Positions 3,784 to 38,980 of a stretch of DNA of 45,645 nucleotides are shown in pieces. The notes under the pieces were generated by a model. It worked only from the letters and a program-made list of their open reading frames with translations, was not told where the DNA came from and did not search any database. The stretch's first letter is position 1. Each line of letters starts with the position of its first letter. Origin of the DNA: a virus. The position numbers were made by a program, and so were the translations under genes. The DNA is taken from IMG/VR virus record IMGVR_UViG_3300043536_000027, positions 1 through 45,645 of that record; one strand, written 5' to 3'.

Positions 3784-4192
3784 ACTTTTCACCGCCGCCC
3801 ATACGATGGACCTGGACGAGCGCAAGTCCGTTACCCGATGGGCCGGGGCCGCCGCTGGGATTGCCGTGCTGGTCATCGTAGCCCTGGCCGTGGACGCCGC
3901 CAAGACATCCGTGGGGTCCGACTCCGCGTGGTGGGACGCCGTGCTTCAGGCAAGGCTAGTTCTGGTCCGTCTGGTCCTTGCCGCAGCGATCATTGCCATC
4001 GGCTACTTCACCAGCCTCGTCCTCTATCACGCCTTTGCCAAGACGGCTATCGGGAGAAGCCTCGTCGTGTTCAAGGAGGACGACACGGACGGAGCCAACA
4101 TGCACTCTTTCAAAACGTCAAATGGTGGTTTCATCCAGGCCATGCTCTTTGTTGCCTGCATTGGCGGTCTGCTGATTGGAGTTTTGCGGTGA
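3773..4192 (+). CDS. Three-TM membrane protein, candidate holin
   Basis: A 139-residue protein with strong GAGGAG upstream of the ATG. It has three hydrophobic segments, about residues 24-42 (AGAAAGIAVLVIVALAV), 62-88 (LVLVRLVLAAAIIAIGYF) and 122-138 (AMLFVACIGGLLIGVL), with a charged loop between the second and third. Its last bases overlap the lytic transglycosylase gene (GTGA), and the following gene is spanin-like. Position and topology suggest a holin or other lysis-timing membrane protein. I cannot link it to a known holin family by motif. Confidence 0.7.
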   Translation: MLNKLFTAAHTMDLDERKSVTRWAGAAAGIAVLVIVALAVDAAKTSVGSDSAWWDAVLQARLVLVRLVLAAAIIAIGYFTSLVLYHAFAKTAIGRSLVVFKEDDTDGANMHSFKTSNGGFIQAMLFVACIGGLLIGVLR

Positions 4193-4767
4193 TCCGCTAC
4201 CTGATGTTGTCGGCGCTTTCGGTCGGGGCGGTGCTGCTTGCCGCTCCGGCCAAGCCGGGCCCCGGGGAGATCGTCCCGTGGCAGGGGATCTTCCAGAGGG
4301 TAGCAGGGCCCCGATGGGTAGATCGTGCGGCACAGGTCCAGGCAGAGTCCGGGTTCAACGCCTCTGCCCAGTCCTGGATCATCAATAAGCAGGGAGTCCG
4401 GGTGCCCTGCGCCTACGGGCCGGCCCAGTTCACAATGCCAACGTGGAAGGTATGGGCCAAACCTCCCACGTCCGATCCGCATGACCCGAGTTACGCCATC
4501 CCGGCCCAGCATTCCTATATGTCTTTCCTGGAAGCGAAGTGCGGGGGAGACTTCGATGCGAGCTGCGGCAGTTACAACGCCGGGCTGGGGTCTATTCTGA
4601 AGGCCCAGAGACTCGCCAATAGCCTCGGGTTGCCGGGTGAGCAGGGGTGGCTATATCAAGCGCTTCCGCGTGTCACAGGGCCATCCAATGCCCAGCAAAC
4701 GCAGGGATACGTCAAGCACATCACCCAGAACCGGGCGCACATCCATGCGCTAGGAGGCAGGCCATGA
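4189..4767 (+). CDS. Signal-peptide SLT-type lytic transglycosylase (endolysin)
   Basis: A 192-residue protein starting at GTG 4189, overlapping the previous stop. Residues 1-21 form a signal peptide or signal anchor (YLMLSALSVGAVLLAAPA). The SLT (goose-lysozyme-like) fold is shown by AESGFN with catalytic Glu53, GPAQFTMPTW (about 77-86) and SYNAGLGS (about 128-135). Such enzymes cleave peptidoglycan between MurNAc and GlcNAc with anhydro-sugar formation. The neighbours are a multi-TM protein and a spanin-like protein, making this the lysis enzyme rather than a virion-associated hydrolase. The signal sequence implies export of the enzyme through the host secretion system. Confidence 0.88.
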   Translation: MIRYLMLSALSVGAVLLAAPAKPGPGEIVPWQGIFQRVAGPRWVDRAAQVQAESGFNASAQSWIINKQGVRVPCAYGPAQFTMPTWKVWAKPPTSDPHDPSYAIPAQHSYMSFLEAKCGGDFDASCGSYNAGLGSILKAQRLANSLGLPGEQGWLYQALPRVTGPSNAQQTQGYVKHITQNRAHIHALGGRP

Positions 4768-14184: not shown

Positions 14185-14880
14185 CTAGAACCAATCACCC
14201 GTGCCCGAAGCCGTAGTCGCAAGGTTCTGCTGCGTCTGATCTTCAAATGTACCAGTCTGCTGTTGCTTCGGTTGCTGACCAGTCTGCTGTTGCTCCGCTT
14301 GCTGTCTAGACACATACAGTTTAGCCAGATTACCGAGACCCTGTGCCGCTTGGCCATAGGCGCTAGTGGAAGTCTGCTTGTCCTGGTTTGACCACTGACC
14401 CTGAGCATTACCCATCTGGGTATTCGCACCCGTGGCGAGTTGCGCCCAACCGGGAGTTTGTTTGAGCGCCTGGGCCGTCTGCAGAGTGCCCTGGCGCTTC
14501 GCCACGGCATCCTGGAGGCTGATACCAGCCAACCCTTCGTCGGTGTTGAACGAGGTAGTCAGAGCCCGTGCGCCGGCCACCCCTTGTCCTGTCATCCCAG
14601 CATTACCCTGGATGTCCCGCTGGGTCTGTGCCGAGTTAGCCTTGAACCGATCTGTGGCAATCTGTGCTTCTGGGGTCAGATTCTTGGACTGGTATTCTCC
14701 CAGAAGGTTCTGCTCCGCAGCAGTAGCGGGGGCCTCCTGCTGTTTCACTTCCTGAGCAACCTGTTGGTTCCTTTGATATGCCTGTTCGGCAGCGGCACGC
14801 TCCCGCTTGGCAGCGTTCCCACTACTGATCCCGGAATAAATGCTGGCCCCAAGCCCGACTACGGCTATCGCTGCTGACAT
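14185..14880 (-). CDS. Ejection/internal virion protein, gp14-like (231 aa)
   Basis: ATG after AAGGGGGTG. A hydrophobic glycine-rich N-terminus (SAAIAVVGLGASIYSGISSG) is followed by an Ala/Gln-rich helical body (RERAAAEQAYQRNQQVAQEVKQQ) and a Gln/Thr-rich tail. T7 gp14 and similar ejection proteins share this layout: short, one N-terminal hydrophobic helix, Q/A-rich. It overlaps the cupin gene end by 16 bases. In related phages such proteins form the outer-membrane part of the ejection channel; that role here is an inference. Confidence 0.65.
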   Translation of the reverse strand: MSAAIAVVGLGASIYSGISSGNAAKRERAAAEQAYQRNQQVAQEVKQQEAPATAAEQNLLGEYQSKNLTPEAQIATDRFKANSAQTQRDIQGNAGMTGQGVAGARALTTSFNTDEGLAGISLQDAVAKRQGTLQTAQALKQTPGWAQLATGANTQMGNAQGQWSNQDKQTSTSAYGQAAQGLGNLAKLYVSRQQAEQQQTGQQPKQQQTGTFEDQTQQNLATTASGTGDWF

Positions 14881-15347
14881 GGCAGCACCCCCTTGAGTAG
14901 TTCCCCGGTTTCAAAATCCAATGTGCGCTGCGGCTCATCCTCGAACAACTCCCTTTCGATTTCCTTGAGGTCCGTCGAATGGGTGTGGTGGATTGTGCTG
15001 TAGAACGTGTCCTCATGCGCGAAGGCATACGGCTTCACCCCAGCCTTAGAAGTGAAACCATTAGGCCCGGTGAACCGTTGAAGCCCGTTCTCGGTCAGGA
15101 TCGAAATGTCACCCCAGTAGACCACCTGGAAGTCATCTTGCTTGTGGACCCGGCCGGTTAGGGCATACCCCTTCTTGAGCATGATTTCCCGGACGTATAG
15201 GCCATGAGCAAACTTGTGGACCACCGGGACTAGAACCTGTTCCCGCCCAAGGATCGCTTCCTCAAGGGTGTAGACAAACGAGCGCAGCAGATCAGGCGTA
15301 GCCTCGACTACGCCCCAGCCACTCGCGCCCATCTGATGGGTAATCAT
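14865..15347 (-). CDS. Cupin-like phage protein (160 aa)
   Basis: I chose the ATG at 15347 because TAGGAGACGAAGA precedes it and ATGA overlaps the previous stop. The pattern GLYVREIMLKKGYALTGRVHK, then GDISILTENGLQRFTGP, then KPYAFAHEDTFYSTIHHTHS matches a widespread phage cupin-fold family with histidines (about 66, 108 and 117-120 regions) able to bind a metal. Homologues are usually found among tail genes. The biochemical role is unknown. Confidence 0.75.
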   Translation of the reverse strand: MITHQMGASGWGVVEATPDLLRSFVYTLEEAILGREQVLVPVVHKFAHGLYVREIMLKKGYALTGRVHKQDDFQVVYWGDISILTENGLQRFTGPNGFTSKAGVKPYAFAHEDTFYSTIHHTHSTDLKEIERELFEDEPQRTLDFETGELLKGVLPCQQR

Positions 15348-15772
15348 TCTTCGTCTCCTACCGCATCCCAGTCGATGTAGAAATACCGCCACCATGCCAG
15401 ACCGATGATCTGGAGCCTTAGCCCATAACCCGATGTCCCATTGGGCAGGTGGAAGATGGAAGCCTGATTCGGGTCCTCAGCCAGGGTCACGTAGCCACGA
15501 GCAACTTCCGTTGCATCCACCAACGCCCGGATGAACAACTTCCCACCACCACCGAATCGGACGCCGTAGAACCGGCGCAGTACGGACGGATCCCCAATGA
15601 CCCCATTCGGCCCTGGATAGATCAGGTCAGTGTCTACAAACGGGAGCAACTGCCGATGCGGGTCCTCATTGAATGTTGCGTAGGCCAGAGTCGTCGTTGT
15701 GCTAGGCGGACTCATCCGCTGGAACGAGGTCCCAGCGGTCAAGTAGTCCGGATAGGCATCAACGAGCTTCAT
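15344..15772 (-). CDS. Hypothetical virion-region protein (142 aa)
   Basis: Soluble, beta-rich looking, with an aromatic C-terminus (GLAWWRYFYIDWDAVGDEE). It is coupled to the cupin gene by ATGA overlap and lies five bases after the stop of the repeat-containing protein. No ribosome binding site stronger than GAAAG is seen. The location suggests a tail or virion protein, but no family is recognised. Confidence 0.65.
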   Translation of the reverse strand: MKLVDAYPDYLTAGTSFQRMSPPSTTTTLAYATFNEDPHRQLLPFVDTDLIYPGPNGVIGDPSVLRRFYGVRFGGGGKLFIRALVDATEVARGYVTLAEDPNQASIFHLPNGTSGYGLRLQIIGLAWWRYFYIDWDAVGDEE

Positions 15773-15775
15773 GGG

Positions 15776-16603
15776 CTAGCTTTCGGTGAACTCGCAGGAG
15801 AAGGACATACTGGCAGCACCGGCCGATCCGTTAAATACGATCAGAGCAATCCCGGCCCCGGATGTCATTGCCACGCAGAGTCCGGTTCCGACCGCAGCCC
15901 CCGTAGCCTGGAATCGGGTTCCAACAGCCACATAACCAGACGCCCCTGCTGCGATCCACTGGGCCGGAGTAGTAGTCCCCATGGATGCGATTGAATAGGT
16001 CACGCCAGCACTCAGAGCCGTAGCCAGGACCAACGGCGTAACCGTTCCGGTTCCGGTCCCTGCTCCACTGGCTTGGAAGATCGAACCCACAACAGGATTG
16101 GCAAGCCCGCCTGTCGCGTAGGTGTTCCAAACGGTGTTCCCGAGAGACGCGATCATGTAGTAGTTCGTCCCCGTCATGGCCGATGCCGCAAGCGGGGCGA
16201 CAAGCCCAGGATCGATAGTGGGAGGCTGAACCTGGCCATTGTTCGTGAGATCAAGGATTGCAGCACCGAAGGCTCCGATTGCAGCCGGAGTCCAAATCAC
16301 GAAAGAGCCCAACACCACGCCAAGTGCCCCGGCCGTGGCCCCTGCAACCCGGATAGTCCCGCTGAAAGCAGGGTTGTTCGGATCACGGGGAGGGGCAGTT
16401 CCAGTAGTCCCGGAACCGACCGTGGTTTGCTGGTAGATGGCAATCGTCGTCAACTGGGCGGTCGTCATCATCCCAGGATTCCAGAGGAAAAGTCTCTGGA
16501 GCTGTAGTTTCTTGGAAGGTCCGGCCTCGATAATCCCCAGAACGTAATTGGCAGAAGCGGCCGCCACTGCGTTGTTGGAATACCGGTAGGTAGTCTTAGG
16601 CAT
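15776..16603 (-). CDS. Virion-associated protein with two G/T-rich repeat modules (275 aa)
   Basis: ATG after AAAGGAGGCGG. Residues about 1-140 are a beta-rich domain. Residues about 141-188 and 196-245 are two copies of a module with the pattern G-x-x-Y-x-I-x-S-x-G-x-T ... F-Q-A-S/T-G-A-G-T-G-T-G. The same module occurs in two other proteins of this operon (17678 and 22519 genes). Such repeats are found in virion proteins of environmental phages. Probably a decoration or tail-tip component; exact role unknown. Confidence 0.65.
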   Translation of the reverse strand: MPKTTYRYSNNAVAAASANYVLGIIEAGPSKKLQLQRLFLWNPGMMTTAQLTTIAIYQQTTVGSGTTGTAPPRDPNNPAFSGTIRVAGATAGALGVVLGSFVIWTPAAIGAFGAAILDLTNNGQVQPPTIDPGLVAPLAASAMTGTNYYMIASLGNTVWNTYATGGLANPVVGSIFQASGAGTGTGTVTPLVLATALSAGVTYSIASMGTTTPAQWIAAGASGYVAVGTRFQATGAAVGTGLCVAMTSGAGIALIVFNGSAGAASMSFSCEFTES

Positions 16604-17636
16604 GGTCCGCCTCCTTTGCGCTCAATTTGTTGAGGATCTTTTCACAACTCGCCCTTTCGGGTTCCATTCCGAGCGCCTTGTAGGCCTTCAACATGAGGGC
16701 GTAAGGCCCAGCGGTCAAACCGAACGTATTCCGATAGCCGATTCGGGGACGGATCAGATGCTCACCGTCATTGGTCCCGTTCGCTACGGCCATCCTAGCC
16801 CAGTAGACAGCCTTGTCGGGCTGACCGCCAGAGAAGGCAATCTCTCCGGCCAGCCATGCCAATTCAGCCATGGCGGGATAGCGGGCCAGACCACTCGCGC
16901 ATGTCTCGATGGCATCAAATGGTTGCTGTTGTTCTGCCTGGATAGTCGCGGCCCGGAAGCAGGCCCAGGCTGACTCCTCATCCCAACCCCGCAGGTCAGC
17001 GCAGGTTCGGAAGGCATCCAGGGCATCGTCCAGCCGGCCCAAGGTCGTCAGGGTATCCCCCAGGTAATACCACCACCGGGGGTTCCCCGGTTCATCCTGG
17101 GTGCTCTTGGTGAGGGCATCCACGATGGAAGCCGCCTTCTTCTGGGCCAGCTCCTCAGACTTGGGTAGTTCCGAAAAACACACCCCATTCATGTAAACCT
17201 GTGGCGTGTTCACGGGAGGAACGCATTCGTGAACATAGCCGATGAACTTGTCCAGAGCTGGCAGCTTGAAGAACCGTTCCTTGCAATACATCCCAGAGTC
17301 ATGGGGCACCAGGACAGTCCCGGCCCCAAGTTCCGCCAGCGCACCCTTGATGTCTACCCCATCGAAATGCATCCGCTCATCGGTGTCCAGGGTACAGGCC
17401 CAGTCAGCGCCCATCTCGGCCGCAGCATCCAGCCCGAAATTCCGGGGGCTGGGAACCTCCTCGTATTTCACGACTCGGAGTTTGTCGCCGACGATCTCCC
17501 GTGCCACCTGCACAGTGTTGTCGGTAATCCCAAGGTCTACCAGGATGCAAAGGTCCGCAAACCCCACCACGCTCCTCAGGGCATCGCCAATGATGCCCTC
17601 TCGGTTGGAAGTCATTGTGATCGTGGCCAGGATCAT
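16596..17636 (-). CDS. GT2-type glycosyltransferase with TPR-like C-terminus (346 aa)
   Basis: ATG after GAGGGACCA. The N-terminal GT-A fold is shown by MTSNREGIIGDALRSVVGFADLCILVD, NFGLDAAAEMGADWACTLDTDERMHF with the DxD at Asp84/Asp86, and FIGYVHE. Residues about 190-330 are helical repeats of TPR type (WWYYLGDTLTTLGRLDDALDAFRTCA). GT2 enzymes transfer sugars from nucleotide-sugars to protein or glycan acceptors. Placed within the tail genes, it may glycosylate a virion protein or alter host surface glycans; neither is shown. It overlaps the next gene by eight bases. Confidence 0.85.
   Translation of the reverse strand: MILATITMTSNREGIIGDALRSVVGFADLCILVDLGITDNTVQVAREIVGDKLRVVKYEEVPSPRNFGLDAAAEMGADWACTLDTDERMHFDGVDIKGALAELGAGTVLVPHDSGMYCKERFFKLPALDKFIGYVHECVPPVNTPQVYMNGVCFSELPKSEELAQKKAASIVDALTKSTQDEPGNPRWWYYLGDTLTTLGRLDDALDAFRTCADLRGWDEESAWACFRAATIQAEQQQPFDAIETCASGLARYPAMAELAWLAGEIAFSGGQPDKAVYWARMAVANGTNDGEHLIRPRIGYRNTFGLTAGPYALMLKAYKALGMEPERASCEKILNKLSAKEADHA

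Positions 17637-20626: not shown

Positions 20627-20630
<4 letters not shown>
19668..20630 (-). CDS. Tail fibre / receptor-binding candidate (320 aa)
   Basis: The ATG at 20630 is preferred (GAGGAGGGGGCT directly upstream; ATGA overlap with the collagen-like gene). The sequence is beta-rich, with many Ser, Thr, Gly and Asn. The C-terminal part ([35 protein letters not shown]) resembles receptor-binding tips of phage fibres. Its codon use and base composition are more A+T-rich than the neighbours (TTA, AAT and ATA are common), a sign of recent exchange. It probably contacts the host surface. Confidence 0.65.
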
Positions 20631-21598
<968 letters not shown>

Positions 21599-21601
21599 GG
21601 T

Positions 21602-22522
21602 TTAGCCCAGCTCGGTTACCACTATATTCTGAACGCCTACCGACACAGAGGAATTCGCGCTCAGGGTGGCCTGGAGATCGATAGCCCCGCTGGTCAGGGT
21701 GCTGATGGCCGTAGTGCTTGCCGTCTCTGGGGTAGCCCCCGCAAACACAACCCCGGATGCGTTGGAGCCCCAGTAAGACAGGCTCCAGGAGAAGGCACCG
21801 GAAGCCCCAGCGGCGGAACAACTGATGATCAGTTCCACCTTCAGACTGGTCGTCGCACCGGCCGCCAGGGTCGCCCCGGAAGCGAGCGTCCCGAGAGAAA
21901 CCCCGTTGAACAAAGGCTTAAACGTCAAGGTTGCAGCCGAAGTGGTGGGAATAGTCAGCCAGAGTTCCACCTTAACGGACTTCTCCGCCACGAAGAAGTT
22001 GGCCGGCAAGGTCAGAGAACCCAGAGATACGTTCCCGGACAAGACAGAGTAGTAGGTAGTTGCCGTGGTGAACGTCACGATGGTCCCTACCCCAGACCCT
22101 TTGGCGATTACTCCGGTCTCGTAGATCGTAACCGGAGTCCCGCTCGCGCCTTCAGACGAACAAAGAACCTGCTGGGTTGGGTCAACCCACGTATCCCCTC
22201 TCGTTGGGCTTGCATTGGTCGTCGGAGTGAATGTGAGTTTGGTAGCCGCAGACACAGACCCAGTCGCCCCAGTCGCGCCGTTGGTCCCATTGGTCCCATT
22301 AGTACCTGCCGGGCCAGTCGGCCCCACTGGGCCCGTCGCCCCAGTAAGCCCAATAGGCCCTCTCTGGAAATAGGGGAGAGACGCCCAAGCGGTGGCTCCG
22401 TCACCGAGCTTTGCCAGCCCGGTATCGGTTTCGACCCCCCATTCCGCCATTGCCAGAACCGGATTGACCGAAGTCCACAAGGCGGCTGTCCCACGACGCC
22501 ACTGAGTCTGTGTAAATGTCAT
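21602..22522 (-). CDS. Tail fibre protein with WRRGTAALW N-terminus and short collagen stretch (306 aa)
   Basis: ATG after GGAGGCGTGTC. The N-terminus (QWRRGTAALWTSVNPVLAMAEWGVETDTG, then KLGDGATAWASLPY; quoted in parts) is a common phage fibre attachment module. It is followed by [17 protein letters not shown] collagen-like repeats (about residues 55-85) and a beta-rich C-terminal domain (about 95-306). It overlaps the large tail protein by four bases. Likely a fibre or spike subunit. Confidence 0.8.
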   Translation of the reverse strand: MTFTQTQWRRGTAALWTSVNPVLAMAEWGVETDTGLAKLGDGATAWASLPYFQRGPIGLTGATGPVGPTGPAGTNGTNGTNGATGATGSVSAATKLTFTPTTNASPTRGDTWVDPTQQVLCSSEGASGTPVTIYETGVIAKGSGVGTIVTFTTATTYYSVLSGNVSLGSLTLPANFFVAEKSVKVELWLTIPTTSAATLTFKPLFNGVSLGTLASGATLAAGATTSLKVELIISCSAAGASGAFSWSLSYWGSNASGVVFAGATPETASTTAISTLTSGAIDLQATLSANSSVSVGVQNIVVTELG

Positions 22523-26544: not shown

Positions 26545-26570
26545 GGTTCCACTGGAGGGTGGGCGGAACC
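26545..26570 (+). promoter_or_regulatory. Leader hairpin before the HNH gene
   Basis: GGTTCC (26545-26550) pairs with GGAACC (26565-26570), enclosing a GGAGGG. It could mask an upstream GTG start at 26559 and leave the ATG at 26583, with its own GGAG at 26573, as the used start. Confidence 0.4.
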
Positions 26571-26582
26571 TTGGAGAGCGCT

Positions 26583-27071
26583 ATGAACATGAAGAAAGGA
26601 GAAACCCACAACAACCTTTTTTGGGCGAAGGTGGATAGGAATGGACCTATCCCAGAAGCTTGCCCAGAACTGGGACCATGCTGGGTATGGAAGGCCAGTG
26701 GCGTTAAAGGATACGGTAGGGTCAAAGTCAACGGGAAGATGGTATTCGCCCATCGGTATGCCTACATGTCCATGGTCGGGCCTATCGAACATGAGCTGGA
26801 TCATCTTTGCCATAACCACGCATGTGTTAACCCGAAACATCTTCGCCCAGCGACACGCCAAGAAAACGGTAAAAACCAAAACATCAATCAGCGCAACACA
26901 AGCGGCTTTAAAGGGGTTTCCTACAATGTCCAAAGGGGCAAGTGGTGTGCCCATATCGGTTGCAATGGGAGGGTATTCAACCTTGGGCGTTATGACACCC
27001 CCGAGGAAGCCTACCATGCGTACTGTGAGGCGGCGAAACGCCTCCACGGCGATTTCGCGAATCTTGGCTAG
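26583..27071 (+). CDS. HNH endonuclease with AP2 DNA-binding domain
   Basis: A 162-residue free-standing homing-type endonuclease. The N-terminal part is FWAKVDRNG ... CWVWKASG ... GYGRVKVNG. The HNH core is HRYAY ... ELDHLCHNHACVNPKHL, with Asp73-His74, His79 and Asn83/His86. An AP2-type domain (about residues 107-160, GFKGVSYNVQRGKWCAHI) should bind DNA. I chose ATG 26583 (GGAGAGCGCT upstream) over a GTG at 26559. It is the only protein gene on the plus strand inside the virion operon, has its own promoter and is flanked by a copied fragment of the adjacent gene, the hallmark of a mobile intron-less homing gene. Confidence 0.92.
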   Translation: MNMKKGETHNNLFWAKVDRNGPIPEACPELGPCWVWKASGVKGYGRVKVNGKMVFAHRYAYMSMVGPIEHELDHLCHNHACVNPKHLRPATRQENGKNQNINQRNTSGFKGVSYNVQRGKWCAHIGCNGRVFNLGRYDTPEEAYHAYCEAAKRLHGDFANLG

Positions 27072-28057: not shown

Positions 28058-28435
28058 CTATCCCTTCACCGTCTTGCTGGCTTGCCCAAGCGGGCCTAAC
28101 CCAATCCCGGCGACAAACGCGGCGTAATACTCACTCGACTTTTTGAGATTCTGGCCCTGCCCAGACTGTTTCAGGAGCCAAGATGCCGCAGCGAACTTGA
28201 GATACTGGTGGAGGTAGGTTTTGATCCTGGCATCCGGAGTATCGGTCAGGTTCACCATTGCGGTGGGTTCTTGGATGTAGCCAACCAGCACATACCCCGT
28301 AGAAGGCTGCCCGTTTAGGAGGATCGTCTGACCGTCCGACTGAATCCACACGGTAGGCTCACCTGTCCGGGACCTCCAGTTCGGGTTCTTCTGGTCCTCG
28401 GTCATGATCTCGCTTTCCCACAGAACCTTGCCCAT
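28058..28435 (-). CDS. Head-tail completion-type protein (125 aa)
   Basis: ATG after GGAGGCATAGGCC. The pattern WRSRTGEPTVWIQSDGQTILLNGQPSTGYVLVGYIQEP followed by YLHQYLKFAAASWLLKQSGQG (quoted in parts) fits small phage adaptor or tail-completion proteins that have a beta half and a helical half. It is flanked by two adaptor-like genes. Exact assignment is not possible. Confidence 0.6.
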   Translation of the reverse strand: MGKVLWESEIMTEDQKNPNWRSRTGEPTVWIQSDGQTILLNGQPSTGYVLVGYIQEPTAMVNLTDTPDARIKTYLHQYLKFAAASWLLKQSGQGQNLKKSSEYYAAFVAGIGLGPLGQASKTVKG

Positions 28436-28438
28436 GGC

Positions 28439-28975
28439 CTATGCCTCCACGTATTGGACGACTTGCGAAAGGGTTTGTGCCACCTGACCAGGAACCGTCA
28501 CTACGCACGTCACATCCAGATATTCCCCAACGCTCAGGCTGACGGAAGATATGGACACGACTTGCCCGTTTGTGGGAGAGAACGACACAGAACCACCCCC
28601 TGATGGGGTCATGGTCCAGGCGTAGGTCACGGGGGTAGGGCCGCCCAGGGGGAGGACATCTACCTCCCACAGCAACGGCAGGTTCAAGAACCCTTCCTCC
28701 GCTGGGACATCCCAGACGGCGGTGAATGCCCCAGCCGGCGAGGTAGCGACGGTCCCAATCTGAACCCCCACTACTCGGCTGACATCAGCCGGCATGATCG
28801 CCGTGTTGCTAGAAACCGGCAGCATCACGTCAACCCGGGTGATGCCCATAAGCTCCGCGACTTCATCGCAGGCAAAGTTGATCGCGTCTGTCGTCATCTC
28901 CTGGGAGAACAGGCGATCATAGGCTCCGTAGCCGATCAGGTTCCGAACATCTGCGGTCAGGTCGGCTAGGTCCAT
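28439..28975 (-). CDS. Adaptor-like protein with Ig/PKD-like insert (178 aa)
   Basis: The N-terminal MDLADLTADVRNLIGYGAYD ... TTDAINFACDEVAELMG ... VMLPVS resembles the adaptor fold, as in the 313-aa gene. Residues about 105-175 (VTYAWTMTPSGGGSVSFSP ... GEYLDVTCVVTVPGQ) look like an Ig/PKD-type beta-sandwich, common on phage virion surfaces. It begins directly after the ATP-grasp gene stop, within GGGGATGGATTTAGATG. Confidence 0.6.
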   Translation of the reverse strand: MDLADLTADVRNLIGYGAYDRLFSQEMTTDAINFACDEVAELMGITRVDVMLPVSSNTAIMPADVSRVVGVQIGTVATSPAGAFTAVWDVPAEEGFLNLPLLWEVDVLPLGGPTPVTYAWTMTPSGGGSVSFSPTNGQVVSISSVSLSVGEYLDVTCVVTVPGQVAQTLSQVVQYVEA

Positions 28976-30259
28976 CTAAATCCATCCCCAAGCCTGAAGC
29001 TTGTCGCGGTCGTTGTTCCACTTGAAACCGATGTCAGTTCGGTATGCCATGTCCGGGATACTCACGGACTTGACCCGTTCGTAGACGTTCTCCTTCGCTT
29101 CCTCCATGGTCTGCCCGAGCCCGACACAGATCACAGCGTAGCCACTGTTCCCGGCCAGGACCCATTCGTTTCCAACCAGCTTCACATCCGAGAGGTAGAT
29201 GCCACTGAGGGTCGGGTCCTTGAACTCCAGTTTTCTCCCCTCTGCGTATTTCTTGAACCCTTCGGGATCCTCGAATGGGTAGGGAGCCACGGTGCAGACC
29301 ACGCACATCTGGAACCCGGATTCCACCTGGAGATTGAACTTGTTGCCATTCCCAAGCGCATCAAAGAAGTCGCCCAAGTTGGATTTGATCCCTTCCATCT
29401 GAAGCCAAACGGTAGGGAAACCGAAACGAGGAGTAAATTCCAGAGGATAGGCCGCCTCCTTGGTGCATATCAGGTTGATGTCAAAATACCCGCTGTAGCC
29501 GGCCGCCCGCAACGGAGCAGCCATCTTCTCTAGCGTTTCATGGTAGAGACGCCCACCACGCTGCCAATAGGCGGTGGTCCCGCTCTCTCCGCAATTTGGG
29601 CCCAGATCATCATTCATAAACTTCTTGTATTCCGTGTTGATAAAGATAGGCTGGATGAACTCCTTGCCATTGAAAAAGCCACCACAGGCAATCTCAACCC
29701 CCTTCACGAACTGCTGGAGTTGAATTTCGTGGATCTTGTGGCCCCACTTCTTCTTGTAGTTCTCCAGGATGGCGAGCACGTCTGAGCCGTCTTCCTGCTT
29801 CCCTACGTAGGTCAGGGCCTTCTCATCCTGGGCCTTGCCACTGGGCTTTGCCACGTAGCGCCCCGGGTTCTGCTTCACGAAGGCTATGGCCTCATCGAAC
29901 GAGGTGAAGTTCCAGTCCGGGATCACCGTCATCCCGGCCTTTTCCATCTCCTCCGACCCGAAGCCACGGTCCATCTCAAGTTTGTCGGAGTAGGGACAAG
30001 GCCCGACGACCGCCTTGCCCTGGGCCCGCAGTTCATCGGCCACCTTGCCGAAATTTGTGTCATCGAAAACGATCAGGTCCGACTCCGCAACGTAAGGCTC
30101 CCAGCGCTTCACCTTCTGGATCAGGCCATCGTTGATGTCCTGGCTGGGCTTATCCTTGATGCAGTAGCGGACACGGTTCCCTTCTCCAAGGAACCGTTTG
30201 CACAACTCGCCGACCCCGCCGAAGTGGGAAACCACCAGGATGGACCGGCCCTTTGCCAT
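28976..30259 (-). CDS. PurD-like ATP-grasp ligase (427 aa)
   Basis: The full length matches GAR synthetase (PurD, about 430 aa). The N-terminal preATP-grasp part is ILVVSHFGGVGELCKRFLGEGNRV. The ATP-binding Lys is in YVAKPSG (Lys138). The central part has QLQQFVKGVEIACGGFFNG, DLGPNCGESG and PLEFTPRFGFP (Glu274, Arg278). The C-terminal domain (GYAVICVGLGQTMEEAKENVYERV ... YRTDIGF) closely follows PurD. PurD joins phosphoribosylamine and glycine. Here the NTGGMGA and E-F-N-x-R-F-G-D signatures are altered (EFTPRFGFP), so the substrate may differ. It is embedded between adaptor genes with 1-base spacing on both sides, favouring a virion-linked or late-infection role. Confidence 0.85.
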   Translation of the reverse strand: MAKGRSILVVSHFGGVGELCKRFLGEGNRVRYCIKDKPSQDINDGLIQKVKRWEPYVAESDLIVFDDTNFGKVADELRAQGKAVVGPCPYSDKLEMDRGFGSEEMEKAGMTVIPDWNFTSFDEAIAFVKQNPGRYVAKPSGKAQDEKALTYVGKQEDGSDVLAILENYKKKWGHKIHEIQLQQFVKGVEIACGGFFNGKEFIQPIFINTEYKKFMNDDLGPNCGESGTTAYWQRGGRLYHETLEKMAAPLRAAGYSGYFDINLICTKEAAYPLEFTPRFGFPTVWLQMEGIKSNLGDFFDALGNGNKFNLQVESGFQMCVVCTVAPYPFEDPEGFKKYAEGRKLEFKDPTLSGIYLSDVKLVGNEWVLAGNSGYAVICVGLGQTMEEAKENVYERVKSVSIPDMAYRTDIGFKWNNDRDKLQAWGWI

Positions 30260-30922
30260 TTAATACCTCAGAATGTTGGAGTGGAACCCCTGACCGAAAT
30301 GGTGCCGCTTGGGGGCGACCGACGCCCGCTTGTAGCCAGCATCTCCGACCAGATTAGCACCACGGAGCGAGCTGCACTCGGTAATGAACTGCGTCTCTAG
30401 CCGCCTGGCCTCGGACTTGTCTTGTCCGGAGCCAGGCAGCGCGAGGAAATGGGCGAGGGCACCATGGACAATAGCGTCCTCGAACTCAGGCCCAAAGCCG
30501 ACTTCATCGAAGTCGCCGATTGGTTTGTAGGCAACATCTGCGATGACCTGGGTGTCGGCTGCGGGCGGGCGATTGGGCCAGAACTGGCCCTGGTCAGTGG
30601 TGTAGGCTGCAATCGTCCCCTCGAATGGGGACAGATTGTGGTAAAGATCCTCCAGCGCCTCTTGGTTGTAGAGCGGTAGGTCCCGCCGATGGCCACTGAG
30701 TTTCGCCCTAAAAATGTAGATCGCCTCTCTCTCGTAAGTAGGGTCGTAGATCGGCTGACAGATCGTGCCGGCCGGGATCGTGAACTCGACAAATTCGCGT
30801 AGAGCGAGGGTTTCCAGAGCCACTTGCCTACACGCGACCTGATACGAAAGCTGGGCCACGCGAGGTTTCAGGTCGTCGCGGAATGGCTCGATTCGGTCAC
30901 GGATGTAGGCATACTGGGTCAT
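30260..30922 (-). CDS. Head-tail adaptor (tail tubular A-like, 220 aa)
   Basis: ATG after GGGGCAACACC. The pattern YQVACRQVALETLALREFVEFTIPAG, then ADVAYKPIGDFDEVGFGPEFEDAIVHGALAHFLALPG and a helical tail (DKSEARRLETQFITECSSLR) is typical of podovirus adaptor proteins that extend the portal (quoted in parts). It follows the small gene after the capsid gene, the expected position. Confident as adaptor type; subunit naming is by analogy. Confidence 0.75.
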   Translation of the reverse strand: MTQYAYIRDRIEPFRDDLKPRVAQLSYQVACRQVALETLALREFVEFTIPAGTICQPIYDPTYEREAIYIFRAKLSGHRRDLPLYNQEALEDLYHNLSPFEGTIAAYTTDQGQFWPNRPPAADTQVIADVAYKPIGDFDEVGFGPEFEDAIVHGALAHFLALPGSGQDKSEARRLETQFITECSSLRGANLVGDAGYKRASVAPKRHHFGQGFHSNILRY

Positions 30923-31427: not shown

Positions 31428-32393
31428 CTAGGCGACCTTCAGGGGGAAGGCGCCCATGTAGCGGCTATCGGACAGCCCGTAGCCGAACACGTCGAAGGTC
31501 CGGCAAGCGCGGCCGGCCTTGGTCTGCATCTTGAAGTTGATGTCCGTTTCCATGATCTGGCGAACGAACCCGAGCCCGTTCACGTGGCCCAGGACACCCT
31601 GGCAGATATTGGAGACGCTGCCATAGGTCGCGGTGGGGATGGCATCGGTCACGATGATGTCGAACCCAGCCACGCGCATGGAGAAGTCGCCGTCTTCAAT
31701 CGCCTTGGCATTGCGCTCGCCGTTGATCTGGTAAGTGAACTGGTCGGACTGGAGCAGGATCTGCTCAACGTCACTGTTGACCATCGCATACCGGCCCTTG
31801 CGGGGAATACCCATCTGGTTGTAGGCCTTCCGGGCGGCAAGGAACTGGTTGATGATGTAGTCGGGATCAGTCCGGTCGGTGCTGGACACGTAGGTCGGCA
31901 CGGCCGGGTTGTAGGCGACGGTGCCCGGGATCTGGCCTTCGTAGACCATGGTAGGAGCGCCATAGACCGTGGTGATGAGCCCGGCGACGACCACCAGGTA
32001 TTCGTTCTCGGCCATCGCGTCGGCCATCATCCTGGCGATCTGGGACATGAGCGGGAGGTTGATCTCCTTGATGTCCACGATGTCCAGGGTGGGATAGGCG
32101 TAGAAGGCGTTGTTGACCTGGACCGTGAAGTTCGTGCCAGTCGTGACGGTTGGCACCAGGTCCATATTGGCGTAGTACGGCTGGATCGGAGGAGGATTCA
32201 GGACGCGGAAGGTGATCTGGTCACCGAACTGCTCCAGCTTCTTGAGCGCTTCGGTGTTGGCGATCTTGCCGAGATAGGATTCCCGGCGCATCACATCCAT
32301 GGTCAGACCTTCGACGATCTCCTCAATGAGGAGAGCCTGGGAGGCAGCGGGGATACCGGTATTAGCGGTAGGGACGACACGGGTAATAGCCAT
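31428..32393 (-). CDS. Major capsid protein (321 aa)
   Basis: ATG after AAGGAATTCATC. Directly downstream of the scaffold gene. The sequence has the look of an HK97-fold capsid protein: N-terminal arm (residues about 1-40), an E-loop-like stretch (QITFRVLNPPPIQPYYANMDL), a spine helix region (MSQIARMMADAMAENEYLVVVAG) and the P-domain/A-domain block (GRYAMVNSDVEQILLQSDQF, then GDFSMRVAGFDIIVTDAIP). The C-terminus is CRTFDVFGYGLSDSRYMG. The size is in the usual 300-350 range for podovirus-like capsids. Position in the packaging-to-tail order supports the call. Confidence 0.88.
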   Translation of the reverse strand: MAITRVVPTANTGIPAASQALLIEEIVEGLTMDVMRRESYLGKIANTEALKKLEQFGDQITFRVLNPPPIQPYYANMDLVPTVTTGTNFTVQVNNAFYAYPTLDIVDIKEINLPLMSQIARMMADAMAENEYLVVVAGLITTVYGAPTMVYEGQIPGTVAYNPAVPTYVSSTDRTDPDYIINQFLAARKAYNQMGIPRKGRYAMVNSDVEQILLQSDQFTYQINGERNAKAIEDGDFSMRVAGFDIIVTDAIPTATYGSVSNICQGVLGHVNGLGFVRQIMETDINFKMQTKAGRACRTFDVFGYGLSDSRYMGAFPLKVA

Positions 32394-34039: not shown

Positions 34040-36421
34040 TTACATCCCCTGGGGTGGCTGGGCTGGTTGAGACTGGGTGGCACCCTGTGGAGCCTGCTGG
34101 CCACCCTGTTGAGGCTGTGGAGTAAGGCCCCTGGCCTGCTTCTCTGCTGGGGTCAACTCGTTCGGGCTGTCGATGGGAACCGGAGCGCCCAGAACCTTGG
34201 CCTGCTCGGCCGTGGCGGACGCCGCTGCGAGGTATTGCTGGGACAACATGGTGGACCAGACAGCAAACGCGGCGATGGTCTTCTCGTCCATCTTCCCGGT
34301 GAGTTTGAACATCTGCTCGGCCGCCGGGATAACAATGGGAGGTGGAAGGCCATCCTTCCCTTGTGCCATGCCCGCCTTGAAAATCTCGGCCATGGTATCC
34401 AGAGCCGAAGCATGTGCCCGTTCCTTGTCCTTCTGAGCATTGGCCGGAGCATCGTTCAGCATCTTCTGCTGAAGTTCAAGCTGCATAGCCTCCACATACT
34501 GGTCCACTGTCTTGACAGCCAACTCCTGGTCTAGGCCCATCCCCTCAGAGATGGCCTTCAGGAACTCGATCTCATCAAGCCACTTCGGCAGACCGTACTG
34601 GTGCAGTTCCTTGAACAGTTCTTTGGCCTTGCGCCCAACGATCTCACGCCGCAAAGCGCCCTTGACGCCCTGGACCTTAAGATCAGCTTCGACCATGAAC
34701 TCGGCTCTGTTCTCGTAGTAGGTTTTGATCCAGTGGTAGCAGTCCCGGAGGTGGGGCTTCCACCAATAGCGGTCCACGTTGCCCACCACGTCCTTGATGA
34801 ATTCTTCCAGGGACTCCCAGATGCGTTCCAGCATGTCGTCCGTGCGAACACCAGACCCAAGGGCCTTCCCGTCCGCGTTTTCAGTGAACCCGGTCACCAC
34901 CGGGATCAGAGACTCGAAATACTTGGCGCACTCCAGGAGTTTGTCCAGGTTGGACGGGACGGTGAACAACTCAATCGGCTTGCCGGAGGAACCGACTTTC
35001 TTGTTCACGCCCTTGTCCCGCCAGAGCCACGTCTTGCGTCCACGGATGGTCAGGTCCTTGTTCTCGATGGCTCCAGCATCAATCATCGCCTGGAACCCAG
35101 ACGTGTCCGCCAGAGCATCGTCAATCGAACGACAGATGTTGATCAACATCTCGCACACTTCAAGGCCAGACTCGCCGGCCCCTACCCCGAAGATGCTGCC
35201 AGGGTCTACCCGGAACGGGATGAAGTGAACGTACATCCGCTTGGGCTGGAACTTGCGCTTGGAAACCTTCAGGATGTGCTTCCCGCACCACCAGATTTCC
35301 CAGATTCCATCTACCAGAGCCGCCTTCTGGGCCTTGTCGAGTCCCTTGTAGTCCCGATGCCCGACGACCACGCCTTCGTCATTGGTGATGTCCAGTTCCT
35401 TGATCTGCGCCTGGATGTCTTCGCCCAGGTCTTCCATCGCCTGCGAATTCAGAACTCCGATCCTTCGCCACACGATGTAACGGTTCAACATCGCGTTGCT
35501 GACATTCGTTGGGAAGGGGAAGATTTCCCAGCGCCGAAGGTTTCCAGCCCAGTTCCCGTCCGGCATGTCGATAATCAGGTCGGCCAACTCGGTATTGATG
35601 AAGGTCGGGTCGTCTTGGAGACTGCGAATCTGGTGGGCAGACATGACGTGGTGAATGTGGACGTATTCCAAACCCTGCTGGAAGCGCGTATTGGGGTCCG
35701 GGTAGACACGCTTCGGATCGATGAACTCCCACATGGGCTTTCGTATGTCTTCCTTGTCGATTTCCTCGTCCCCGTCATTCCAGCGAAGCGCCGGCTGGCG
35801 AAGTTGGGTCGGGCCGACAACGACTGAAGATCCCAGAGAGGACAACTGCGTACACATCTCGTCCATGCAGTTTTCCAACTCCATGGCTTCGTGGATGTCC
35901 TCGAATTCTTCCCGGAGGCGAGACACACGCCGTTCTTCTTCCTTCGGATCCATGGCTGTTCTGCGCCTGGGACTCGGTTTGATCTCCCACGGCCGTCCTT
36001 GGAGGGGGCAGACCTGCTTGTAGAGCTTGGCACGGCCGATCTGGACAATGCGAGGAAGGCGGCGGTAGAAGAAGGTGGATTCCTCGTAGCCTTCGCGGGG
36101 CTCATTCACGTCCTTGCCGCGCAGATACTTCTCGATTTTGCACCACGCCCACTCTTTGTCCCTGCGGGCATCATCGGAAAGCTGAATCTCGTTCTCAAAC
36201 TGGCCGATGAGCTTGCTTTCTTCGCTCATGTCGTTCAAGTCTTCGTGAGCAACTTCACCGATTGGCTTATCGTCAGGCGGAACGCTGTTCGGGCCTGACA
36301 TCGGGGGCTGAAGGGACATCATCGGAGAGCCCTGTGGGGCACTCGGCATCCTGGCCGCAGCCATTGACCCTAATCCCTGGCCTCCCGGATATGCCACAGC
36401 CACTCTCCCGGGGCCAATCAT
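34040..36421 (-). CDS. Portal protein (793 aa)
   Basis: The portal is recognised by size and pattern, in P22-like style: FYRRLPRIVQIGRAKLYKQVCP, the VVVGPTQLRQPALRW region, WEFIDPKRVYPDP, and the long central helices RPWEIKPSPRRR ... EEFEDIHEAMELENCMDEMC. Late blocks are RMYVHFIPFRVDPGSIFGVG and the FTENADGKALGSGVRTDDML stem-like region (quoted in parts). The C-terminal 100 residues are Gln/Pro-rich. A dodecameric ring at one capsid vertex is the family role. The start at 36421 lacks a clear ribosome binding site; ATG 36364, after GGGAGGCC, is an alternative (774 aa). Confidence 0.88.
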   Translation of the reverse strand: MIGPGRVAVAYPGGQGLGSMAAARMPSAPQGSPMMSLQPPMSGPNSVPPDDKPIGEVAHEDLNDMSEESKLIGQFENEIQLSDDARRDKEWAWCKIEKYLRGKDVNEPREGYEESTFFYRRLPRIVQIGRAKLYKQVCPLQGRPWEIKPSPRRRTAMDPKEEERRVSRLREEFEDIHEAMELENCMDEMCTQLSSLGSSVVVGPTQLRQPALRWNDGDEEIDKEDIRKPMWEFIDPKRVYPDPNTRFQQGLEYVHIHHVMSAHQIRSLQDDPTFINTELADLIIDMPDGNWAGNLRRWEIFPFPTNVSNAMLNRYIVWRRIGVLNSQAMEDLGEDIQAQIKELDITNDEGVVVGHRDYKGLDKAQKAALVDGIWEIWWCGKHILKVSKRKFQPKRMYVHFIPFRVDPGSIFGVGAGESGLEVCEMLINICRSIDDALADTSGFQAMIDAGAIENKDLTIRGRKTWLWRDKGVNKKVGSSGKPIELFTVPSNLDKLLECAKYFESLIPVVTGFTENADGKALGSGVRTDDMLERIWESLEEFIKDVVGNVDRYWWKPHLRDCYHWIKTYYENRAEFMVEADLKVQGVKGALRREIVGRKAKELFKELHQYGLPKWLDEIEFLKAISEGMGLDQELAVKTVDQYVEAMQLELQQKMLNDAPANAQKDKERAHASALDTMAEIFKAGMAQGKDGLPPPIVIPAAEQMFKLTGKMDEKTIAAFAVWSTMLSQQYLAAASATAEQAKVLGAPVPIDSPNELTPAEKQARGLTPQPQQGGQQAPQGATQSQPAQPPQGM

Positions 36422-37006: not shown

Positions 37007-38980
37007 CTAGAACGGCTTCCCAAACTGATCGGTGATCGGAGGACCGCCACCAGCCTTGTAGGGACGCCAAACCTGTTCCTGAACCGGTTCCTCGAAGTCC
37101 TCGGCTGTCATCCAGGGCGGAAAATCATTCAGAATATGGGCATACTGGGTGATGTCCTTCACCCCGTAGCGCAAAGAGGTGATGATGTCGAATTTCCGGC
37201 TTGGAGTTTCCTCCATCGGCCCATCACCCTTCTTATTCCACTCATAATTCGCGTATTGATCGATCAGTTTTTTTAGATTTTTGCTGATAAATAGGCGATT
37301 TGTCTCCATCCGATGCCAGATTGCGCCCATCCCAGTCAAAAACGAGTTGTCCGCCTTGATAAACTTGCGCTTATCCTCATCAATGTTCTCCCAACCAGAA
37401 CCATGGGCCAGAGTCCAGTATTCCTCAAGGATCTTTTCGCCATCTTTCTGGGCCACCTGGTCAGAAGCGGGGTCGATCATGAACGTCATTGACCGTCCCC
37501 AGCGGTCCAACTCGCCGTAGTGGTAGACCGGAGGCCTGCGGTCCTGCTCGTAGTCCACGTAGCAGTAGACAACATCAGCCATCGGGTCCAGAGCGAGCCC
37601 TACGGCCGCCGTTGGGTGGGTCCAGCCAACGTCCATGCCGCCCAGGAACTTCCACCTCTTGCCGATGGAGATGAGCGCGGGGTCGTAGAGGATGTCTTTG
37701 GTAGGGAACGGGAAGATCAAGCCAGAATTGGACGTTGCATGGCCCTGTGTTCTAGCTGCGAGCATTGCCGGATCGTGCGACCAGCGGCGGATATTGCGGG
37801 CCTTCACCTCTTCCGAGATGTGAGTGATGTCGTCGTAGGTCATGTAAACCAGGAACACGTCCGGGCCTTCTTCCTCCATGGACTTCACGAAGGGGGTCCG
37901 CCCATGCTGGGGGCAGTAGGAGCAGTAGATATACCCGTTGGTCGTAGACATGCGGGCCTGGATCTCGTCCAGTATCTCCAGGGGGCATTCCTCATCTATC
38001 CATGCCCTGTCACCAGTCCATGAGGCCAGGGCCCCCGTCTCCATACCATGCGACTTGAAGGCGATAAGAGAAGTCGTGTCGCTCGGGACATGTTTCACCC
38101 GTACCATATCGATTGCCCCGGACACGGATTTGCGTGTGGGCTTGTCGATGATGTATTTCGAGTTGATCAGGGCCTCGTCACCCGGCTTGTCGGTCCATCC
38201 CGGCTTGTCGATGTTGGGGCCGAACAGTTTCTTCTGGGCCGAGTCACGGGTCAGTTCAGTGGTTTCACCAACCACCCAAGCGTTGATCCCACGTGCCGTG
38301 CGCGGTCCCCGATACCACTCCGGATAGATCCCAGTGGCATCCCAAGCTATGTTAACTGCTGCAGCCAAAGACTTTCCTGAGTTGGAAATCACAATATTGT
38401 TGCAAACAAATGCGTGATCAGGATGGGTGATGTTGATGTCCCAAGTGGGCTCATAGCCGATCTTCCCCTCGTAGGTCAACTCGGACAGTTCAGCATGGCC
38501 TTCCTTGTCCACCCAGACCGGGAGTTGGTGCTTCACGGCCCGCATGACGCGGACCATAGCAATGCGACCGGACGGGTATTGGACGGCTACCTTGTGCTTC
38601 TGGCTGCACTCTAACCACCCCTGGGAATGACGGAACCGGTGCAGGATTCGCCCGGGGTTGGTGAAGATCGCCTTGACCTGGGTAGGGACGAAATTCCCCG
38701 TGGCGAAGTCGAACGCCACCACTTCGTCATTCACCTCGATGCAGTCGATCCGCTTCTCATCGCCGCACCACATGAGAACGGCGGCATCCCCCCGTAGGCA
38801 CTGGTTGGCCCCGGAGATCGCCTTGATGTGGCGATTCGAGTTCCAGAACGCCATCTGGGGTTTATTGGGAGGACGCCGGTCCCAGATAGATATAAACGCC
38901 TCTGCCGCCTCCTGTTCAACCAGAGTGCTGAAGTCACTGAGTCCCTGGACTAGGCCGGCAAGGTCATTGTGTTTCGGCAT
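37007..38980 (-). CDS. terL: Terminase large subunit with in-frame intein (657 aa)
   Basis: The packaging motor ATPase and nuclease. The Walker A motif GANQSGKS is formed only after joining residues 57-60 to 201-204; residues 61-200 are an intein. Walker B is GDRAWIDEE (Asp329, Glu330), and the coupling motif region is TTNGYIYCSY. The RNase H-type nuclease is marked by LGGMDVGWTHP (Asp450) and KFDIITSLRYG (Asp598). The spliced length, 517 aa, is normal for podovirus terminases. It follows TerS and two small genes, including an FmdB-type zinc ribbon. Function depends on splicing, since the insertion breaks the P-loop. Confidence 0.93.
   Translation of the reverse strand: MPKHNDLAGLVQGLSDFSTLVEQEAAEAFISIWDRRPPNKPQMAFWNSNRHIKAISGANQCLRGDAAVLMWCGDEKRIDCIEVNDEVVAFDFATGNFVPTQVKAIFTNPGRILHRFRHSQGWLECSQKHKVAVQYPSGRIAMVRVMRAVKHQLPVWVDKEGHAELSELTYEGKIGYEPTWDINITHPDHAFVCNNIVISNSGKSLAAAVNIAWDATGIYPEWYRGPRTARGINAWVVGETTELTRDSAQKKLFGPNIDKPGWTDKPGDEALINSKYIIDKPTRKSVSGAIDMVRVKHVPSDTTSLIAFKSHGMETGALASWTGDRAWIDEECPLEILDEIQARMSTTNGYIYCSYCPQHGRTPFVKSMEEEGPDVFLVYMTYDDITHISEEVKARNIRRWSHDPAMLAARTQGHATSNSGLIFPFPTKDILYDPALISIGKRWKFLGGMDVGWTHPTAAVGLALDPMADVVYCYVDYEQDRRPPVYHYGELDRWGRSMTFMIDPASDQVAQKDGEKILEEYWTLAHGSGWENIDEDKRKFIKADNSFLTGMGAIWHRMETNRLFISKNLKKLIDQYANYEWNKKGDGPMEETPSRKFDIITSLRYGVKDITQYAHILNDFPPWMTAEDFEEPVQEQVWRPYKAGGGPPITDQFGKPF
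38381..38800 (-). other. Mini-intein inside TerL P-loop (140 aa)
   Basis: Starts at Cys61 (CLRGDAAVLMW, block A) and ends at Asn200, followed by Ser201 as the +1 residue. Block B is GWLECSQKHKVAV with His129. The C-terminal blocks are PTWDINITHPDHAF and NNIVISN. There is no room for a homing endonuclease, so this is a minimal splicing domain. The penultimate residue is Ser199 instead of the usual His, a known but uncommon variation that may slow Asn cyclisation. P-loop insertion is a favoured intein site in ATPases. Confidence 0.92.

Follow-up and report, generated by a model that had tools for sequence, protein, structure and literature searches.

The 427-residue protein P0001, encoded in an IMG/VR virus record, is probably a working ATP-grasp carboxylate-amine ligase that has the fold of PurD and is not a GAR synthetase. 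It belongs to a large and hitherto unrecognised group marked by an E-x-T signature (T276, D260 and E210), for which a job on a protein amine appears the most likely one. The PurD-fold E-x-T ligases are a new subfamily. In the following, the window means the whole stretch of DNA analysed, 45,645 nucleotides in length. The gene and the neighbours that define its setting are as follows.

28976..30259, minus strand: gene of the PurD-fold ATP-grasp ligase P0001, 427 aa (ORF calling, Pfam, TIGR00877, AlphaFold2)
30260..30922, minus strand: gene immediately upstream, 220 aa, encoding a virion structural protein (phrog_437, E=8e-5)
28439..28975, minus strand: gene immediately downstream, 178 aa, matching the N-half of an SU10-type adaptor (PF24175, E=1e-3, below the Pfam cut-off)
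28058..28435, minus strand: second downstream gene, 125 aa, C-half of an SU10-type adaptor (PF24175, E=3e-5, below the Pfam cut-off)
31428..32393, minus strand: major head protein, a marker of the structural module (phrog_267, E=1.5e-24)
34040..36421, minus strand: portal-size protein, 'head-tail adaptor' (connector) (phrog_332, E=5e-11)

The open reading frame at 28976-30259, picked out in a previous sequence-only reading of this DNA, is real, encodes 427 aa and lies on the minus strand; inspection of open frames on the plus strand of the same interval found none. The terminase, the portal-size connector and the major head protein are all encoded upstream of it on the same strand, and together with the phrog_437 match of the upstream gene they bear out the proposed placement inside a head/neck structural operon, so that expression is probably late. 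One-base gaps had been described on both sides of the gene, but both spacers are 0 nt by sequence: the upstream TAA is followed directly by the ATG, and the gene's own TAG by the next ATG. The two SU10-type halves lie on the downstream side, and the virion structural gene occupies the upstream side.

Several other features of the window were recorded. The terminase ORF (37007-38980, minus strand) holds an apparent small intein (CLRGDAAV...VCNNIVISNS), whose match to Pfam Hint is under the cut-off (E=0.009). A homing-type HNH endonuclease with an AP2 domain and a zinc loop is encoded antisense within the tail genes (26559-27071, plus strand). A pair of collagen-like GPTG-repeat genes adjoins the tail genes (20627-22522, minus strand), and the tail region also encodes a glycosyltransferase-like protein with TPR repeats (16596-17636, minus strand; phrog_13126, E=3e-17). 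The plus strand carries genes for a pentapeptide-repeat protein (48-899) and an SLT transglycosylase-domain protein (3838-4767).

PurD fold and active-site signature

P0001 is recognised by Pfam as GARS_A (E=3e-10) and GARS_C (E=1e-9), both over the cut-off, whereas the GARS N-domain was not recognised in it by the Pfam sequence search. TIGR00877 aligns to residues 73-413 with E=4e-31 and 108.4 bits (107.8 bits in the genome search), and the equivalog cut-off, which requires 288 bits, is missed. An AlphaFold2 model, for which 47 sequences from relatives in phages and genomes were used, reached a pLDDT of 93.3 and a pTM of 0.90. This is the structure prediction that the sequence-only reading had called for, and its comparison with known structures gave a PurD fold: PurD accounts for each of the 13 best PDB chains (Z 31.2-34.3 over 375-397 residues, at 18-23% identity), PurK/PurT come next at Z 24, and the model aligns to PurD across residues 1-418. 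The earlier statement that all PurD domains are kept is thus borne out at the level of the fold and, by sequence, for the A and C domains, but not for the N-domain. The DIGF motif, which had been described as the C-terminal ending, occupies residues 409-412 of 427 and is not terminal. The model has no whole-length match in the BFVD viral structure library (best TM 0.46), and the protein matches none of the PHROG families. Given the TIGR00877 E-value and dN/dS ratios of 0.03-0.22 against relatives (seven pairs), the resemblance to PurD is not due to chance.

The altered and retained motifs map to the window as follows.

30203..30226, minus strand: residues 12-19, HFGGVGEL, site of the PurD GGREHA phosphoribosylamine/phosphate loop, not conserved (alignment)
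29576..29602, minus strand: residues 220-228, GPNCGESGT, altered NTGGMGA, intein site in loci L008, L009, L014 and L015 (alignment)
29411..29440, minus strand: residues 274-283, EFTPRFGFPT, altered EFNxRFGDPE, intein site in locus L007 (alignment)
29027..29044, minus strand: residues 406-411, YRTDIG, C-domain motif retained from PurD (Pfam, alignment)

The residues contacting ATP, Mg and glycine were placed on P0001 by alignment. In the passage of PMC8880213 that lists them with A. aeolicus PurD numbers, Asp212, Arg287 and Glu292 bind glycine, Lys103, Lys143, Glu185, Glu192 and Lys214 bind ATP, and E100 is also listed. Conservation was then read from 62 non-redundant sequences, obtained from 130 loci with a match by leaving out seven incomplete ones and L014 (its intein being unexcised), adding the window and collapsing rows more than 90% identical. 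Seven residues, E95, K138, K212, E274, R278, R407 and D409, are kept in all 62, and four of these (E95, K138, K212 and R278) correspond to E100, K143, K214 and R287 of PurD. Of the ATP-binding residues, K143 and K214 are therefore kept and E192 is kept in 54 of the 62 sequences, while K103 is replaced by Arg and E185 by Gln in every one. At the glycine site, Asp212, Arg287 and Glu292 become E210, R278 and T283 in P0001, and Glu292 is lost throughout the set.

Five positions are changed yet invariant: R98, Q182, E210, D260 and T276 occur in 62/62 phage relatives and in none of six cellular PurD proteins, which uniformly carry K, E, D, Y and N there. Four of them (R98, Q182, E210 and T276) also occur in 20/20 Paceibacteria rows and in nine further genome-borne genes, by comparison with 0/10 host PurD rows, and D260 is common to the same rows and genes except L146, which has Glu. 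The branch formed by Sphingomonadaceae and Roseomonas proteins has Asn at position 260 and Met at 182. Consistent with the sequence-only reading, the signatures at residues 220-227 (GPNCGESG) and 274-282 (EFTPRFGFP) are altered as claimed; in the latter motif E274 and R278 are retained, whereas Asn is changed to T276, Asp to F281 and Glu to T283, position 281 being mostly aromatic and not Asp across the family. Two further changes had gone unremarked, namely the loss of the N-terminal GGREHA loop, which is present in 6/6 cellular PurD proteins and absent from P0001, and the replacement of a PurD Tyr by Asp260. Membership in the ATP-grasp superfamily is supported by the fold and by K138, K212, D260 and E274, invariant in 62/62. 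We take D260 and E274 to be the acidic Mg pair usual in other ATP-grasp enzymes.

Inteins lie inside the gene in 5 of the 130 loci, at EFT|C in L007 and at PN|C or VN|C in L008, L009, L014 and L015. They start with Cys and end with Asn followed by Cys or Ser, and LAGLIDADG was found in the two that were scanned. Inteins prefer conserved active sites. Invariance in 62/62 sequences, the low dN/dS ratios and the inteins in both motifs together indicate that the altered signature is not decay.

Some individual loci deserve mention. The extein of L007 (7660-10011) equals the window protein except for P277C and V376A, and its silent changes cluster around and after the intein site, which is likely a homing co-conversion tract. 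In L001 (10001-11281), identity to the window gene dips at about residues 190-290, in the segment on the substrate side, with higher values on either flank, as recombination or diversification would produce. A 1139-aa frame in Paceibacteria genome G145 (contig C57:1838-5161) matches the family in three pieces with a break near model position 268; it is probably another intein-bearing member and stands outside the chromosomal copies counted below.

Distribution in phages and cellular genomes

A profile search brought up relatives in at least 566 IMG/VR stretches, and 80 loci were kept. The family's separateness is partly a product of the search design. An upstream gene was identified in 114 loci; in 100 of these the ligase gene starts no more than 10 nt from the upstream stop or overlaps it, 74 of them having an overlap of exactly 4 nt. 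This spacing indicates that the ligase is wired into operons and is not loosely inserted cargo. In the window's clade, the upstream gene is the same in 13/13 loci and an adaptor lies downstream in all ten loci where that side is covered. In a second phage clade the ligase presumably sits after P22-like ejection genes and ahead of lysis genes, and in a third it is presumably placed close to terminase, portal, GroES or scaffold genes. The neighbour scans covered picked loci and ORFs chosen by program, of which some lie on the wrong strand.

A tblastn search of the 'phages' collection returned 23 records, among which MW202796.1 is a member whose gene is unannotated there. The 'PurD' matches of Acinetobacter, Salmonella, Listeria, Staphylococcus, Y11 and one fecal record were rejected as members, as the six fetched sequences carry GGREHA and the classical signature. 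Five of these six came from the 23 records or copies of them and one, MT838306, from another search; the remaining tblastn records were classed by identity only. The PurD gene adjoins purH in two records of the collection (L133 and L134) and presumably also in the Y11 record, judging by the look of the encoded proteins. Because of the GGREHA loop, the classical signature and, in some cases, the adjacent purH, such records were taken as bacterial DNA.

Members also occur in cellular genomes. A strong copy (at least 496 bits) is present in 5 of 144 Paraburkholderia genomes, the rest scoring at most 176 bits, and the one copy whose surroundings were examined lies within an apparent P22-like prophage. 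All five bacterial genomes with the phage-type gene also carry a true PurD. Chromosomal copies are found in 54 of 285 Paceibacteria genomes (at least 390 bits), and in the trees these branch as sister to the clade of the window (SH-aLRT 99), the first tree leaving out 15 viral rows and low-scoring matches and the second being built on 47 picked rows. A Halarchaeum plasmid protein (L238) bears the full family signature and groups among the Paceibacteria. Matches at E<=1e-55 occur in 6 of 298 Sphingomonadaceae genomes; five of these are not of phage type, and the three of the five included in the tree form the separate branch with Roseomonas. On a plasmid of Roseomonas haemaphysalidis (L239, 12001-13275) the family gene adjoins genes for a type III polyketide synthase, a methyltransferase and an aminotransferase.

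Purine-synthesis genes are few in the 54 family-bearing Paceibacteria, which are drafts and may be incomplete: PurD exceeds its cut-off in 6, PurF reaches 200 bits in 11 and any PurM is found in 8. By comparison, of 19 relatives that have PurD and lack the family gene, 11 show PurM (Fisher P=0.0006 against the 54), and 12 likewise have no PurF match of at least 200 bits. Allowing for incomplete genomes, this suggests that the gene is not tied to purine synthesis.

Partner genes and the proposed reaction

SET and GNAT enzymes act on amines, mostly protein lysines. A SET-domain gene is convergent with and directly adjacent to the family gene in 5/5 Sphingomonadaceae chromosomes and also on a Sphingomonas daechungensis plasmid (1.5 kb read per side), and SET genes were found in 1 of 14 control genomes and are thus rare. 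Among the 54 family-bearing Paceibacteria, 10 of 30 SET matches lie within 3 kb of the family gene, in nine genomes, where 0.27 would be expected; the Poisson figure overstates independence since SET matches are phylogenetically clustered. This count comes from the unpicked 54, another scan having mixed in genomes picked for a nearby SET gene. In PurD-only Paceibacteria, one of eight SET matches is near the true PurD (G284). The interval between a P22-like tail gene and the ligase can be read in 45 phage loci, of which 8 have SET, 17 GNAT, 20 neither and none both.

The SET profile had no match in the window. The window protein at 14865-15395 (minus strand) is short-tail-fiber-like (phrog_12032) and has no SET part, and it clusters by blastp with phage genes bearing a C-terminal SET (L034:5060-5923).

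By analogy with PurD, we propose that K138, K212, R98 and E95 would hold Mg-ATP, that D260 and E274 would bind Mg, and that R278 would hold the carboxylate of the donor, from which an acyl-phosphate would form; attack by an amine would then yield an amide. Catalysis, the amide product and late expression are all inferred. Glycine and phosphoribosylamine are unlikely substrates, because both the glycine-amino clamp E292 and the phosphoribosylamine loop are lost. The ligase may instead join a small carboxylate to a protein amine, on a virion, ejection or assembly protein in phages and on another protein in cells, at an acceptor site of the kind also served by the recurring SET-domain or GNAT neighbours. 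The placement in the structural operon points to a virion or assembly protein as target in phages, and the cellular targets must differ: since members also occur in Paceibacteria, in Sphingomonadaceae and on a plasmid of a haloarchaeon, none of which offers a capsid to modify, the target cannot be capsid-specific across the family.

Because SET and GNAT enzymes recur beside the ligase, a protein amine is our best guess for the acceptor, held at somewhat less than an even chance; its main rival is a small amine, for instance a polyamine. SET is not universal, as 31 of the 54 Paceibacteria have no SET match at all and 20 of the 45 phage loci have neither partner. The neighbours within 6.5 kb of the Paceibacteria copies include HPF (18/54), SecA (17/54), MurB (15/54), polyamine genes (13/54) and LPG_synthase_C/GNAT (11/54), of which MurB and the polyamine genes point away from a protein amine; a small acceptor would also suit a PurD-type pocket. 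In addition, the N260 and M182 of the Sphingomonadaceae/Roseomonas branch speak against the explanation favoured here. A tentative extension, rather unlikely as it stands, is a hitherto undescribed two-enzyme amine modification in which the E-x-T ligase and a small SET methyltransferase would serve one target, virion or ejection proteins in phages and a cellular protein in Paceibacteria and Sphingomonadaceae.

A small-molecule ligase, which would couple an amino acid or some other acid with a small amine, a polyamine for instance, late in infection (for DNA packaging or the envelope) and in Paceibacteria metabolism, is an unlikely though serious alternative. The nearest folds, PurD, PurK and PurT, all use small molecules, and both the polyamine genes (arginine decarboxylase, AdoMet decarboxylase and members of the arginase/agmatinase, deoxyhypusine-synthase and saccharopine dehydrogenase families) and the LPG_synthase_C/GNAT gene recur near the Paceibacteria copies. 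However, 41 of the 54 loci lack a polyamine neighbour, MurB, HPF and SecA are commoner, and the polyamine gene seeds matched neither the phage loci nor the window. An unusual nucleotide, named in the sequence-only reading, is at most a conceivable target of the ligase.

That P0001 is a plain PurD, an auxiliary metabolic gene boosting purine synthesis by making GAR, is very improbable. The homology over residues 73-413, the fold and reports of viral PurD/GART, which may or may not be of the E-x-T family, as a purine gene in ocean (PMC11360552), snow and vent viruses speak for it. Against it stand the 108 bits where 288 are required, substrate residues changed in 62/62 sequences, hosts of the genome-borne phage-type copies that already have PurD (5/5), and the 54 Paceibacteria, drafts that may be incomplete, 48 of which have no PurD over the cut-off, 43 no PurF of at least 200 bits and 46 no PurM. 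The purine-booster label is probably wrong, since the active site consistently differs from that of PurD; the doubt raised earlier about a purine role is strengthened by the signature and by the true PurD of the hosts. A pseudo-enzyme, an old PurD that no longer catalyses and is retained for a structural or assembly role in the particle, would agree with the site between neck genes and the loss of several substrate residues but is just as improbable, given a catalytic Lys, Glu and Arg set invariant in relatives down to 26-36% identity, inteins in both motifs and cellular members without a capsid.

Comparison with known systems

PurD (TIGR00877; PDB 2yw2, 2yrw and 1gso) shares with P0001 the whole-chain fold, the ATP-site lysines, E274, R278 and the C-domain YRxDIG. 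P0001 differs from it in its score (108 against 288 bits), the missing GGREHA, the changed NTGGMGA and EFNxRFGDPE motifs, the Tyr-to-D260 and Asn-to-T276 replacements and the lost E292. Haloarchaea have 'extra' PurD-like proteins of similar description, Hlac_1553 and rrnAC0307; a passage of Brown et al. 2011 (PMC3261824) notes that their P-loop diverges and that the Asp of R[LF]GDPE is missing, and judges them 'not actual' GAR synthetases. That passage makes no link to phages, describes no signature for a family and names neither a partner nor a function; the Halarchaeum protein above, by comparison, carries the full signature of the P0001 family.

Among phage enzymes, the amidoligase clusters of the Pseudomonas phages TC6 and PA11, described in PMC6209634 as comprising an ATP-grasp protein, a COOH-NH2 ligase and a glutamine amidotransferase, resemble P0001 in that they place an ATP-grasp protein with predicted amide ligation in a podovirus. 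TC6_048, however, has 250 aa and lies in the replication half of the genome and not in a structural operon. Membership of the family in the TC6/phiEco32 amidoligase clusters was rejected, the family profile finding nothing better than E=2.5 in the TC6 ORFs and in phiEco32 1-40000 with filters off.

The TTL-like part of human TTLL12, a eukaryotic fusion, is an ATP-grasp-type ligase, and TTL is another ATP-grasp family. According to PMC3520985, TTLL12 unites SET-like and TTL-like parts in one protein. The R2K/CDC123 ligases of phages and eukaryotes (PMC4431377) are ATP-grasp enzymes, some of them phage-borne, with a predicted role in protein modification as proposed here, but they form another ATP-grasp clade than that of P0001, and that paper nowhere mentions 'PurD'. 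Literature searches, which are no proof of absence, returned nothing combining ATP-grasp, phage and 'phosphoribosylamine-glycine ligase' and, among the matches listed, no link between SET and PurD-like proteins; 'PurD-like' as a term was found in one paper.

In the ocean catalogue PMC11360552, viral PurD/GART is read as purine metabolism and is more than 2.8-fold enriched in viruses, and the accounts of snow and vent viruses read it in the same way. If such calls rest on the E-x-T family, the conclusion on purine auxiliary metabolic genes needs revision, and the signature T276, D260 and E210 offers a simple test for the purD/GART genes of surveys. Were the two-enzyme SET system true, viral 'purD' auxiliary genes in surveys would partly be that system. 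The SET linkage, seen in several unrelated lineages, offers a tangible starting point for finding a new modification of a protein or an amine, and the family copies in Paraburkholderia isolates (L142 and L143) open an experimental route. Three records, L133, L134 and L137, are filed as phages but carry bacterial purH-purD, a trap for counts of purD as an auxiliary metabolic gene.
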